Below, in pieces: positions 5,420 through 64,000 of a DNA stretch of 64,000 nt. Under the pieces are notes generated by a model. It saw only the letters and a list, made by a program, of their open reading frames with translations, made no database searches and had not been told where the DNA came from. Position 1 is the first letter of the stretch, and the number at the start of each line of letters is the position of its first letter. The stretch comes from Branchiostoma floridae. Taxonomy: Eukaryota; Chordata; Leptocardii; Amphioxiformes; Branchiostomatidae. Location of the stretch: assembly GCF_000003815.2 (NCBI RefSeq), contig NC_049984.1, forward strand, positions 27,448,631 to 27,512,630. Reading direction: 5' to 3'. The translations under genes were made by a program, and so were the position numbers.

Positions 5420-6747
<1,328 letters not shown>

Positions 6748-56267: not shown

Positions 56268-57029
56268 NNNNNNNNNNNNNNNNNNNNNNNNNNNNNNNNN
56301 NNNNNNNNNNNNNNNNNNNNNNNNNNNNNNNNNNNNNNNNNNNNNNNNNNNNNNNNNNNNNNNNNNNNNNNNNNNNNNNNNNNNNNNNNNNNNNNNNNNN
56401 NNNNNNNNNNNNNNNNNNNNNNNNNNNNNNNNNNNNNNNNNNNNNNNNNNNNNNNNNNNNNNNNNNNNNNNNNNNNNNNNNNNNNNNNNNNNNNNNNNNN
56501 NNNNNNNNNNNNNNNNNNNNNNNNNNNNNNNNNNNNNNNNNNNNNNNNNNNNNNNNNNNNNNNNNNNNNNNNNNNNNNNNNNNNNNNNNNNNNNNNNNNN
56601 NNNNNNNNNNNNNNNNNNNNNNNNNNNNNNNNNNNNNNNNNNNNNNNNNNNNNNNNNNNNNNNNNNNNNNNNNNNNNNNNNNNNNNNNNNNNNNNNNNNN
56701 NNNNNNNNNNNNNNNNNNNNNNNNNNNNNNNNNNNNNNNNNNNNNNNNNNNNNNNNNNNNNNNNNNNNNNNNNNNNNNNNNNNNNNNNNNNNNNNNNNNN
56801 NNNNNNNNNNNNNNNNNNNNNNNNNNNNNNNNNNNNNNNNNNNNNNNNNNNNNNNNNNNNNNNNNNNNNNNNNNNNNNNNNNNNNNNNNNNNNNNNNNNN
56901 NNNNNNNNNNNNNNNNNNNNNNNNNNNNNNNNNNNNNNNNNNNNNNNNNNNNNNNNNNNNNNNNNNNNNNNNNNNNNNNNNNNNNNNNNNNNNNNNNNNN
57001 NNNNNNNNNNNNNNNNNNNNNNNNNNNNN
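56268..57029. other. assembly gap, 762 N
   Basis: Unsequenced bases lie between RAG1L and the partial gene at 55.4-55.7 kb. Apparent reading frames through this run are artefacts. The gap is where a tail-to-tail partner gene or a transposon end would be looked for first. Confidence 0.98.
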
Positions 57030-57521: not shown

Positions 57522-57799
57522 CTAGCCTATGGTGTTGGTTGGGCAGACCCCGATCAGATGGCTTGTGAGTGTTGACTTGAGTCGTGCCACAGGGTCGGGA
57601 ATGGTACAGGTGGGTCTTGCCAGGGAGTTAAACAGTGCATGGACATGCTCAACTCCCTGCTCTGCCATGAACCCCAGCCCGAACCCCCACCTCCTGATGC
57701 AGGGAACCACATGATCTTCTAGCATGTGCATCTTTATTGGTACGGTGCCATTGGGGACATTGCTTCTGTAGTATGACATGAAGTCTTTGATGGCTTTGT
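57522..57799 (-). CDS. RAG1L: RAG1L last exon: zinc-binding HxxxxH and catalytic glutamate region
   Basis: The exon starts after an acceptor (tttccag) and finishes the codon GAC; it ends at TAG 57524-57522. It carries H-x4-H (KMHMLEDHVVP, H1018/H1023), which I align with RAG1 H937/H942, followed 17 residues later by AEQGVEHVH, which I align with the RAG1 'SEGNESGNK' segment holding E962. About 37 residues follow before the stop, so the C-terminal tail is shorter than in vertebrate RAG1. The alignment is by eye; either E1040 or E1044 could be the catalytic residue. Confidence 0.8.
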
Positions 57800-60700
57800 C
57801 TGGAAAAGCAAATAAGAGTAAGCATAAATGAGTGTACGTTAAGAAGCGGGTTGTATTGACAACGTTGGTTAAGTAGAAGAATGTACTTAATATTCTAAGA
57901 AAATAGTTTGTACATGTACATACCTAGCTCACATACTGCAGTCTCCTCCATGGGACCTCCATGGGAGTAGAGCTTGTGACATCTTGCAAAACGACTGAAC
58001 AGCTCCTTGTATGTCCCCGCCGTTGACGTCGCTCTGGGCACAAGGGATAGCGGCAGATCTGGAAACTTGTCCATGATCTTGGTCACTGTACGTTCCACCA
58101 TCCCTGTTAGTTCATCTATGGCATCATCCTGTGTATAAAAAAAGGAATAAGTCACAATAGACTCAATATTATACAAGGCACAAAGTCTGTGTGACCGACA
58201 TAAACTCCCAAACTAAAAATAATAACTAGCTTAGTACTTGCCTGCAACATTCTGTTAACGTGGTTTCCATTGAAGGAGTTGCTGTGGAAGGCCTGCCTCT
58301 TCACACGGAGGGTCTGCAGGAGGTCATCCAGTTGGCTCGTTAAGGGTCCATCCCCCTTCTTTATGGACGCCTTCAGTCGCATTTCTTCTGCCTTAGACCT
58401 CTGCATGAATAAGTAGATGTATACAATGTAAGACATATCCCAATTATATAATCAAGTCACATTCATCCATATATATTGATCTTTAATAAATCTTGTTAAG
58501 AATATGTATGTGCCAACTTTGTACATGGTGAATTTACCAGTGAATCTTTCTGACGCACAAGCTCCTCTACCATGGAGCAAGCTTCTGCAAAGACAGCTTC
58601 ATCTAACTTCTCTGTTGTTCCGTTGCAGCAGGCGAGCCAAGCCAGCTCATTTTCCTGGTCATGGAGCTCCTCCTCCACGAGGTCAGCCTCGTCGTCCAGA
58701 CCCCGGGCCTGTTCGATGGCCTGTACGTAGCACCTGAACTTTCCGAGGTGGACGTCGGCCAGCAGGGCCTCCTTGGACACCTCCCCCTCGTGTAGCACTC
58801 CACACAGGTACGACTGCAGCTTTAGGTCAAGCTCATGCATATCTGTCTCCATTAGCTTGAAGGCACGAAGGTATAGCCCCAAGCTTATATGTAGACCAGG
58901 TATGATGACCTGTGAACAAATAGACAGATTTTGCCATAAGTTTAAACAATTATGTGGTGTTCCGCAAGTAAGCAATGGTCCATTTAGCAGTATTGTCAAA
59001 TTGATACTTTTTTAATTAGTTTACCTGGTCTACTGGCAATGCGAACATCACGGGGGCGATCACATTGTGATGTTTTTTGGCTAATGACAACTTGCCATTA
59101 GCCTGCTCCATGAAGTCATGGTAGTGCTGCTGCAGGGTTGCCAAGGTTCTTGGTGGGATGCTTAGCCTCCGATCTTCTGACTCCGGGTTGTTCATTTCCA
59201 TTTTGGTGATGTCACACCACAGGCATGGGTGGACAGCTGTGGTAAAAGTGTTAAAACAATTATTACATAGTATAACTATATATCTTTATGAGAAATAAGT
59301 CATTAACATTTTTGAAGGCTCTGTTTTCAAGAAAGAAAGTGGAAAGGGCCCTTACCACTTGCTCCGGACAGCCCGTACCAAAGGCACAGGAAGGCATAGT
59401 CTCCTGTGCCAAACACACGCATCGTATGCTCCTTGCCATCCTTGGCCCTGCAATGTGAATTTGAATCAGGTTCATTGGGAGGTGACATAAGAAAATGGTA
59501 CAAAGTTAACACAGGTTTAGCTACTTGTCAAAGTAAGTACTAACTGGAAGCTCACCTCCACTTTGACCCTTGCAGATCGCCCAGTTCCTGGGCATACCGG
59601 CCGATGGCAAGCATCAGATTTTCCCGGCTGTCCTTTGCCTCAAAAATGCTGAACACAGCGGTGTTCTGCCGGGAGTTTGGATGGTCCCTGTTGAGCAGCT
59701 GGAAGGTCAGTTTGAAGGAGCCTCCCCCGTGGTCTCCCCCGACCTTTACCCAGATCTCATCTTGGGGGATTTTCCCCCCATGCCATGTAAGGCACCTGTA
59801 GAAGATAGATAATTTCCTGTAAATCACTTTTACTTTTCAACCTAGACATATATAAGCAATAACATTCTTTTTATGTACACAGGGTGACACCATAGCTGGT
59901 TGCCAGATCTTCTGTGTTGCACCAACTGTCAAATAGACTAAGGGTTAGATGAGATGAGACAAACATGCAAGCTGAGAAAATTAATGCTTTCTTACTCTGA
60001 CTCCTGACACTTCTCCAGGTAGTCAAAGATGGCAGCGCCGACTGGGGAGATGTACGCACACGGAAGCAGTTGCACCTTCGTGGGGTCCGACCCATCTTTC
60101 TTCGCTCCCTTAACACAGAAAGGTAGGGTTTCGGCGTGCATGTCATATGCAGTAAGGCGCTCCCTGGCGGCCCTTCTCGTCAGTCGCTCACTCTCCATTG
60201 AGATGTTGTACATCTTAAGCCAGCTATAACAGAACAGACAACTCTGTTTAGACTATGTATACCAGTAAGGTTCTTTGTACAAGAATGTTGTAAATGTAAC
60301 TTATGTTGTCTACAGAAAATGGTTTTCAATTTTACCTTCTGAGTTTCCCAAGTTGATTGTAGTTCAGTCCTATCTTTACTTTTGCCTCCAGCTGGTGACC
60401 AGAAGGGATGACAACTTGATCGAACTTCAGCTGGTGCAGCATGCTCCTCAGCTCGTCCCGTGGCACCCTCCGCAGTTCCTCCCGGAGCAGCACTCCAGGA
60501 TCCCCACCACTCACCCTGTCTCTCACCTCCTCCATAACCCTAGCCTTCTTTCGAACGGTAGAACGGGCTGCCTCTGCTGAGGACTTTCTGGGCTTGGGGA
60601 CATGCATGAGACGTAGGGGCTAAAATTGAAAAAAGAGACACACATTTCATTATCTGTGGGAGGGGGGAAGGTGGGAGGGAAAGAGAGTTTTTGCAAACCA

Positions 60701-62061
60701 AGACAAAGAGGTAGGGCGGGTGGAGACAGAATCTATAGCTGCTCTTACCATAAATTCTTATTGTCATATTGTCTATCCGACTGCTGCCTACCCCTGTGAC
60801 AGGGGTCCCAGCAGCAAAAATGGATACGACGATAAATGTAAAATGTCAATTAGAGAAAACTTATGATACATACCTGTCCTGGTGTTTTTGCCTCAACAAT
60901 CCTCGGGTCACGGGAGAGAGATCTCATCCGACAATACATCGAATAAAAGGCATCCTGCTGGTCAGGTGTCAGGGGACCTTTCTCACTTAGACCAACTGTT
61001 ACCTTATCACTGGTAACAGATGTGGAAGGTTGGGCATCACGGGAGGAAGGAGGAGGACAGGTAGCAGGGGCAGGTGTAGTAGTCATGGTAGTGGAGGGAG
61101 GGGTTAACACTGTGCTAGGAGTGGAAGGAGGTACAGGTACATGTACGGGTGGTGGGATCACCTGAGTGTTAGTGTGAGGCACCATAAGGAGATATCTCCT
61201 TCCAGGTAGCAGAGGCGGTGTTGTGGTGTGAGAAGGAGCAGGCATTTGTGTTGTGTTTGTAGGACATTCATTATGATACTTAAGTTCATCCAGCCTCAGC
61301 TGTGCACAACAGTTTCTACAGTTAAAAATTAATTGAGCATAGCAGGACCTCCAGGTCCTGTGAACAGATGTCAGGTCACTTGCTTTTATTTGTGCTTTGC
61401 ATATAGCACAGTCAGCATTGTTATTTCCAGCTATCTGGAACAACTTATGTAAGCATTCAAAGCAAAACACATGAGCACATAGTGCTTGCACGGGTAGGTA
61501 TACAAAACACTGGCAAATACCACATTTGTATGCCTCCAAACTACAGATTGGTTTGAATCGATCCTCATCAAGAGGGAAGTCATCTAATGTGCTTAAGAGT
61601 TCAGAGAAAGTCTCTTCACTCATAGTTTTGGCACACTCTTCCACCTTTTCACCTTTCTCATTTTTGCCTTTCTCAGTTTTCTGAGTTTTTGGCCTACCTG
61701 GAGACTTCTTTTTTACTGGTCTCCCCCCTTTTGTCAGTGTTGCTACCTTCTCACAAGGAATGCAGGTTTTTCCATACCAGTGAGGATACCATGACACTCG
61801 TGTTGGTAGCGTGTCAGATTTCCTGTACAGTTTGCACCTACACCTATGGCAAAAGGGTGGGGGATGTAGGTAAGACCTGTCCTTTTGGACATCTACCAAC
61901 CACACTTCTTTAATCTTATCGGCAAACTCAACACATGAAAGCAGTTTGACTTGTTTTGCCCTGTCTTGGTTTGTCTGCACAAACTCGCCACAAAACCGGC
62001 AAAGCTTTGCAAGGTTTTTGATGTGTTCTTGTAGTTGTGAATCAGTGCTGCAGGCAGACAT
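57522..62061 (-). CDS. RAG1L: RAG1-like protein, ten exons, apparently intact
   Basis: Exons on the minus strand by my reading: 62061-60874, 60619-60336, 60223-59996, 59795-59556, 59447-59356, 59236-59025, 58909-58538, 58400-58242, 58128-57924, 57799-57522. They sum to 3,258 nt, giving 1,085 residues plus TAG, with every junction in phase. Start is the ATG at 62061; an in-frame TAG at 62083-62085 closes the frame upstream. N-terminal part: CRFCGEF (residues 21-27) and FCHRCRC (70-76) pattern like the RAG1 N-terminal zinc motif; basic GRP-rich stretch 112-140; C3HC4 RING 180-221 (CGIC..CAHVFCFEC..CAIC) and a following zinc finger near 247-265; then a Pro/Thr linker. Core: candidate catalytic D588 (VGGDHGGGS), D663 (FGTGDYAF), CxxC at C682/C685, H1018-x4-H1023, and candidate glutamate E1040/E1044 (AEQGVEHVH). 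Known family role: DDE strand transfer at terminal repeats or RSS-like sites, in the nucleus. Mouse RAG1 is about the same length. Whether this is a transposon gene or a host gene is open. Confidence 0.9.
58240..58241 (-). promoter_or_regulatory. GC splice donor of RAG1L intron 8
   Basis: Exon 8 ends ...TTGCAG and is followed by GCAAGT, a textbook GC-AG donor. The next acceptor (tacacag at 58129-58130) joins it in phase 0. The nearby GT (GTACTA, 58237) would shift the frame. Confidence 0.65.
60874..62061 (-). CDS. RAG1L: RAG1L exon 1: N-terminal zinc domain plus RING finger
   Basis: One open exon of 396 codons, ending in phase 0 at CAG followed by gtatgt. The order of parts matches the non-core N-terminus of vertebrate RAG1: a CxxC pair, a second Cys cluster after a 'VDVQKD..LHPPPFCHRC' stretch (compare RAG1 'IDVRGD..IHPTRFCHNC'), a basic linker, the RING finger, and a zinc finger of form C-x2-C..H-x3-C (NCRNC..YHNEC). 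The known role of the RAG1 RING is E3 ubiquitin ligase activity. Residues 270-345 are low-complexity Pro/Thr/Ser. The last 40 residues (LTPDQQDAFYSMYCRMRSL) begin a folded region that continues in exon 2. Confidence 0.88.
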
Positions 62062-62099: not shown

Positions 62100-64000
62100 C
62101 ATCTACATCTGAAAATTGCAATACAGGTATATATTCACTATATGAATAGACAATATGAATTGTTTATCCAATGTACTACTAGTATTGTTGTTTTGACAAC
62201 ATAATTTTAGTAGTGCAGCAAAGAGATGTCTCCTATTTTTCTCATCTATAAAGTATTCACATTATCAATTCTAGGAGACAGTCTGTATTTTGTATCTATT
62301 GTATTATTGTTGTCACAAGAAAAGTTTAATAAGCATCAAAGAAATGTCTCCCTGTTGTTTTTTCTCTCAGCTCTTTGTAACATTCATTACATAAAGAACT
62401 CTGATGGTGGGGAGGGGGGCACATTCAGCGATATTTATCTACTTCAATACAACAACAATTTGATATGATCAGTCTCCTGAGTATTTTATTCAGGTAGAAC
62501 AATTTTCTTAGGGATACAATTTAATTTAGAACAGTATAGAACGAAATACAAGACTCTACAGTAACTGATATTGTTCTAAATATGACCTACAGGTCGTGCA
62601 CTCTTTGTCATTTTATCCGCTCGTAACACAAAGGAAAGAAAGCAAATGAAGAAAAGAAGCACGGATATTAGTAGTGGTAAGTATGAGATTGACAACAGAT
62701 ACAAAGATTACCGGTGGATAACTCCGGGAGAGGAGCAGTGCTCAGATGAAGAAGAGCAAAGTCAAGGGTATGATAAAAGTTTGCCCGGTGAAGCCCTATA
62801 CCCGGAAGTGCGTGTCATGTCCCCGTATGTTTGTGATTAGAAATTATATATCCCCACAGGTCTCCTTTCATCAATGAGACCTTACAGGGCAGGATATAAA
62901 CTCAAGTAAGACAACTTCTTTGAGGTTGATATGTGGTTTATTTGCTCAAAAACACCTTAGTTACGGCAAGTAAATATTCAGTTGCTATGCCGGCACGTGG
63001 GCTGCCCGTGCCGGCGTAACACGATATGACCATATTTGGGAGTGCCTCGCGATGCCGCGCAGGCGCACACTAAGGGAGCAGGATGAGAACTTTAGGCGGT
63101 GACGTGAGCTGAACTTGGGATAATTTTTTCCTGTTTTTATGGGATCATTTTTTTCCTTTGTTTTTATCGTGGCAACTATCATTGCTTGAGCTGAAATGAA
63201 TTGTCTGATTCATGAATGAACAAAAACAGGTTAATCATGTGTGTCAAGTTGAAAGGCAATTAGAGAGAAACGGCGTCAATGCCAACATAACTGACCCACA
63301 ATCCCCGGAAAAGTGCGGCTGCCAGCCGGCGACGGGGCCCCCAGTCCGGCCGGGTGGTGTTCGCCGAAGCTTCGTGGGCCATGTGCAGCAGCACGTGCCT
63401 GAGGCCAGCTGGCATTGTGAGTAACGTACGATTTGCTCTAAGGACACTGACGAAATATGGCAAAGCTCGTGCATGCTATAGAAAATATTCAGATCTGCTT
63501 TACTTACTATCACTATCAGTTCTCTTAGCGTTCAGTATGACTAGAACCTACACTCTCTAGCCTCCTTCTCACACCAGCATTTACGTGGCGGTGGTGGTGG
63601 GTGTTGAGCGTTGATTCGCGATTTTCAAGACGACCGAAGAATCTCTTGCCATGGGAAATCGTTTTGCTGCCACTATCTCCCATGACCAAAGATTCTTCGC
63701 CCGTGTTGAATATAGCGAACCAGCGCCCCCTAAAAAATATTAAACGCCGGCGCTACAATAACAAGTCTGTGGAGGACTACTACTTGAATACGTAAAAATA
63801 CTACTACTTATTTTGCATCTTTTCACACACTAGATTTTTACCAGCACTATTCTGAGCGAGAACAGGGCAAACTTTTTTTTTTTTCAATTACAGATTGCAC
63901 TGTCTTCAAACCAAATATGACACGTTCTGGTCGTCAAAATTGTACAATTTACATACCCGCTCTGCTCGAAAAGCTGCTCGAGGGCGGTCACAGCATTGTA
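62100..64000. other. upstream of RAG1L: no gene recognised
   Basis: 62590-62840 holds an acidic 64-codon plus frame (EEQCSDEEEQSQGYD) of unknown meaning. 62990-63115 is CpG-rich with an imperfect hairpin (GCCGGCACGTGGGC / GCCCGTGCCGGC), and 63300-63380 is GC-rich. A promoter for a minus-strand gene could lie here, but none is defined. Confidence 0.4.

Follow-up and report, generated by a model that had tools for sequence, protein, structure and literature searches.

An apparently intact lancelet gene that very probably encodes a Chapaev-type transposase with Chapa and RING domains

Chapaev transposons are known from lancelets and the sea anemone (Kapitonov and Koonin, 2015; PMC4411706). They are defined by the motifs C(2)C, LH and H(4)H, and the named examples from Branchiostoma floridae are Chapaev1_BF and Chapaev2_BF (PMC4079192). 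DUF1280 has been assigned to putative Chapaev transposases, and the family has been placed in one clade with RAG1 (PMC3985635). The Chapa domain corresponds to a truncated RAG1 N-terminal part, and in two Chapaev subgroups a RING follows Chapa, an order like that of RAG1 (PMC4411706). Amphioxus ProtoRAG RAG1L carries N-terminal zinc motifs, a ring dimerization domain and a core (PMC7204232). Here we describe a gene in a 64 kb stretch of B. floridae DNA (contig NC_049984.1, positions 27,448,631 to 27,512,630; hereafter the window) that appears intact and very probably encodes a Chapaev-type cut-and-paste transposase with Chapa and RING.

The gene lies on the minus strand at 57522-62061. Re-joining its ten exons from sequence gave the same coordinates and frame as the original prediction, 3,258 nt including the stop codon and 1,085 residues, with no stop or frameshift in any of the 1,085 codons. 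All nine introns end in AG; eight begin with GT, and the one after exon 8 begins with GC (CAG|GCAAGT). Of the open frames listed for the window, that of exon 1 is the longest at 410 codons, ahead of one with 247 (the list covers frames of at least 100 residues with less than 30% N).

By sequence, the core of this protein is a Chapaev core. Its layout of DDE residues with CxxC and H-x4-H zinc ligands is intact, as originally described: D588, D663, C682/C685, H1018-x4-H1023 and E1040/E1044. Of the catalytic and zinc residues of RAG1, E962 is named in titles of Protein Data Bank (PDB) entries. The two zinc-ligand pairs coincide with the Chapaev motifs C(2)C and H(4)H, and the LH motif is found at L754-H755. 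Because C(2)C and H(3-4)H are common to EnSpm, Mirage, Transib and RAG1 (PMC12730594), they back a broad clade only; placement with Chapaev inside that clade comes from the DUF1280 profile (PF06918), which matches the window protein at 46.4 bits against a cutoff of 25. A match to the RAG1-core profile, PF12940, had been named beforehand as the test of a RAG1-like gene. No such match was seen in the window protein at E ≤ 1, and for 17 relatives PF12940 was absent from the 25 of 31 families listed at E ≤ 10. A PDB search with the core profile likewise brought up no RAG1 chain (E ≤ 10). The predicted core fold is nevertheless the RAG1/Transib fold, with RAG1 and BbRAGL scoring highest and Transib close behind, at 16-17% identity to RAG1 in structural alignments.

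The N-terminus, again judged by sequence, is homologous to that of RAG1. The window protein alone matches mouse RAG1 in the PDB (E 3.7e-7, residues 44-264), and a profile of six N-terminal sequences matches RAG1 at E 1.8e-17, collinear over RAG1 residues 99-376. That match spans the first zinc motifs, the RING and then the following finger, all encoded here in one exon as had been proposed. Ahead of the RING lies an AT-hook-like stretch whose GGR is invariant in all six aligned N-termini. The first zinc module of the Chapa region appears ZAD-like: PF07776 (zf-AD) matched five of the six N-terminal pieces (best E 3.5e-5; the printed scores of 19.9 and 17.0 bits are below the cutoff of 28), with no match for the window's own module at E ≤ 1. 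A limited look through the open-access literature found no paper linking RAG1 with ZAD. What stands of the RAG1-like label is thus the N-terminal homology and the predicted fold, while the core by sequence is Chapaev (DUF1280). The gene is a distant cousin of RAG1, the enzyme behind antibody-gene rearrangement in humans, and its kinship to RAG1 is real; its family is Chapaev and not ProtoRAG-type RAG1L.

A search with the core returned 18 matches: ten lancelet proteins at 42-99% identity, seven others at 26-33%, and P0019, a chimeric lancelet model matching at 67% over 12%. P0012 (1,028 residues) has the same whole order of Chapa-like region, RING and DUF1280 core, at 28% identity with 99% covered. 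P0007 (B. floridae LOC118422598, 1,141 residues), a Chapaev paralogue, has Chapa and core, but where the RING would be it carries a proline-rich unit of 17 residues, VSTVQPQPGVAYCPVPP, repeated many times. One homologue of exon 1, P0020 from B. lanceolatum, bears the name 'V(D)J recombination-activating protein 1-like'. Both its contig and the longest one listed for core protein P0005 are 19,392,235 bases long, so P0020 probably represents exon 1 of a Chapaev gene that received a separate annotation. The core alignment (A1) included 17 of the 18 matches, leaving out P0019. Exon-1 alignments (A2, A3 and A4) joined three of the four exon-1 matches to P0007, P0012 and the window, leaving out P0023, which has 28 exon-1 residues; alignment A5 comprised the window, P0012, P0020, P0022 and P0007.

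Two predicted NCBI proteins bear on the exon junctions. P0002 (LOC144875275, B. floridae x B. japonicum) is identical at 679 of 685 positions over residues 401-1085 and therefore joins exons 2-10 alike, reproducing eight junctions. P0023 (LOC118418271, B. floridae) is identical at residues 326-353, at 397-700 and in the tail from DKAIKDF on. Its exon 1 is also joined to the exon-2 acceptor, but from a different donor inside the exon, which ends at base 61003. Neither protein thus reproduces the exon-1 donor at 60874. In favour of that donor are its own splice sequence and the conservation of the seam in P0007 and P0012 only: the window reads KTPGQ|PLRLMHVP across exons 1 and 2, P0012 ATGGQPIYLVKVP and P0007 PTGAKPLHFVQVP. 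P0023 also carries intron 9 residues ahead of exon 10, from what looks like a join after 59167 that resumes at 57861 without normal splice signals; this may stem from a deletion in an allele, a fault in the assembly or poor gene modelling.

Several observations weigh against an intact Chapaev transposon gene. Two Pfam scores are slightly under their cutoffs, that of the window RING (zf-C3HC4; 20.4 vs 21) and that of the Chapa region of P0012 (21.1 vs 23.3). P0002 starts at an internal methionine in exon 2. P0023 has just 445 residues; its match ends at residue 700 in exon 6, it is without exons 7-9 and it uses another exon-1 donor, so the full-length product is a predicted one. No second copy of the gene, which would help to define its ends, was found in the window, and neither terminal inverted repeats (TIRs) ending in CAC...GTG nor a target-site duplication of 3-4 bp could be accepted around it.

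The want of such ends would fit a domesticated Chapaev, a transposase gene that the host retains for a cellular function while its element can no longer move, as would the intact ten-exon frame and the near-identity of P0002. We consider this unlikely. A 762-base N gap at 56268-57029, about 0.5 kb past the 3' end of the gene, could hide one element end. Apart from P0002, P0023 and P0019, moreover, the lancelet core relatives are merely 42-59% identical, with several per species, which resembles multiple element families and not one conserved orthologue; such numerous and mostly divergent relatives favour a transposon gene. If the copy were decayed or not expressed, its exon model being apparent only, that could account for the shortness of P0023 and its odd join of exon 6 to intron 9; this is quite improbable given the uninterrupted 1,085 codons, usable splice sites at all nine introns and the reproduction of exons 2-10 by P0002. 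A true RAG1-like gene of the ProtoRAG/RAGL family, an invertebrate RAG1 orthologue, would agree with the N-terminal homology, the best core-fold scores and the database name of P0020, and is hard to credit when PF12940 gives way to DUF1280, RAG1 is at such low structural identity and beyond reach of the core profile, and no kelch/RAG2L match was seen among 20 open frames scanned in the window (11 lie no more than 6 kb from the gene; small spliced exons could escape).

As a Chapaev transposase, the protein may work much as its relatives do. An RNase H-like DDE nuclease with the RAG1/Transib fold is predicted for its C-terminal ~620 residues. If RAG1 and Transib are a guide, the transposase would act as a dimer bound to its element's inverted ends, with metal ions held by D588, D663 and a glutamate (1040 or 1044); it would nick and cleave at the transposon ends and then join them to a new location. 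The active site may be buttressed by the CxxC/H-x4-H zinc site. The AT-hook-like stretch probably contacts A/T-rich DNA, and the RING and C2HC finger probably dimerise and may serve as a ubiquitin ligase, as in RAG1. All these biochemical steps are inferred, and this copy of the element may be mobile, immobile or domesticated.

Table 1. Positions of exons and protein features of the Chapaev-type gene in the window.
Feature	Position	Strand	Details
Exon 1	60874..62061	-	Residues 1-396; start codon; Chapa/RAG1-importin-binding zinc region, AT-hook-like KGGRP...PGRPK, RING, C2HC finger, Pro/Thr-rich linker
Chapa domain / PF12560 RAG1_imp_bd	61639..62040	-	Residues 8-141; E 1.4e-6; 28.5 bits vs cutoff 23.3
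AT-hook-like KGGRPVKKKSPGRPK	61687..61731	-	Residues 111-125; putative DNA contact
RING finger C3HC4	61396..61524	-	Residues 180-222; all C3HC4 ligands present
C2HC zinc finger 3' of RING	61264..61320	-	C248-x2-C251...H263-x2-C266; aligned to RAG1
Exon 2	60336..60619	-	Acceptor shared with P0023; 3' junction shared with P0002 and P0023
Exon 3	59996..60223	-	Junctions matched by P0002 and P0023
Exon 4	59556..59795	-	First catalytic Asp D588 (GGDHGG) at 59734-59732
Exon 5	59356..59447	-	Second catalytic Asp D663 (GDY) at 59401-59399
Exon 6	59025..59236	-	CxxC zinc ligands C682/C685 at 59225-59214
Exon 7	58538..58909	-	LH motif L754-H755 and long helical insertion
Exon 8	58242..58400	-	GC donor at end; junction matched by P0002
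Exon 9	57924..58128	-	Junction matched by P0002
Exon 10	57522..57799	-	Stop; H1018-x4-H1023 (57728-57711); candidate catalytic Glu E1044 (or E1040) (57662-57648)

Elsewhere in the window, an alcohol dehydrogenase exon lies on the plus strand at 6125-6442 (Pfam ADH_N, E 2.4e-18). A 59-base tandem repeat (5833-6237, 6.9 copies, 96% match) is found just upstream of this frame and overlaps it, and a 33-base tandem array (6423-6746, 9.8 copies) overlaps the end of the exon and continues past it. At 62987-63017, 0.9 kb upstream of the start of the transposase gene, there is a GC-rich hairpin-like inverted repeat with 11-nt arms, one mismatch and a 9-nt loop. Another inverted repeat at 63608-63726, with 55-nt arms that are 78% complementary and a 9-nt loop, is possibly a short non-autonomous element.

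The original description took an intact N-terminus joined to a core to be rare among invertebrate RAG1-like sequences. The combination is not new, since both the Chapaev subgroups with Chapa and RING of 2015 (PMC4411706) and amphioxus ProtoRAG RAG1L (PMC7204232) precede it; the gene described here is an apparently intact single gene that has the complete RAG1 order of domains and lies outside the RAG/ProtoRAG family. We tentatively suggest that a ZAD-type zinc module, a RING, a C2HC finger and a RAG-fold DDE core may have been an ancestral package of Chapaev and the RAG/Transib line, with RAG1 inheriting its N-terminus along with the core and not from a separate element consisting of the N-terminus only. 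If so, N-RAG-TP and several 'RAG1-like' database entries would be first exons of Chapaev genes, and the RAG1 N-terminus would be related to the ZAD domain found in insect zinc-finger proteins. The gene is useful for testing such joint inheritance, and makes the ancestral-package idea (PMC4411706) directly comparable with a separate-element origin of the N-terminus (PMC8355894). It also calls for caution, as lancelet models consisting of exon 1 only and named 'RAG1-like', such as P0020, can be pieces of Chapaev transposases.

Among known systems, the Chapaevs with Chapa and RING (PMC4411706) share with this gene the DUF1280 core, the Chapa zinc domain, the RING after Chapa and the host group, a likeness drawn from descriptions and profiles; TIRs were not found at this gene. 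Vertebrate RAG1 differs in its core, whose sequence profile does not match here, and in its V(D)J function and RAG2 partner, neither of which is indicated for the window gene; its GGRP stretch comes after the RING, whereas in the window protein it comes before. ProtoRAG BbRAG1L (6b40) belongs to a different sequence family, and the window gene has no RAG2-like neighbour in the frames scanned. Transib (HzTransib, 6pqx), unlike the window gene, is described as having no N-terminal region (PMC8355894). N-RAG-TP of Aplysia, as reported second-hand in the same paper, resembles the window gene in bearing a part like the RAG1 N-terminus. It is said, however, to consist entirely of that part (PMC8355894), which in the window forms the first of ten exons in a transposase gene.
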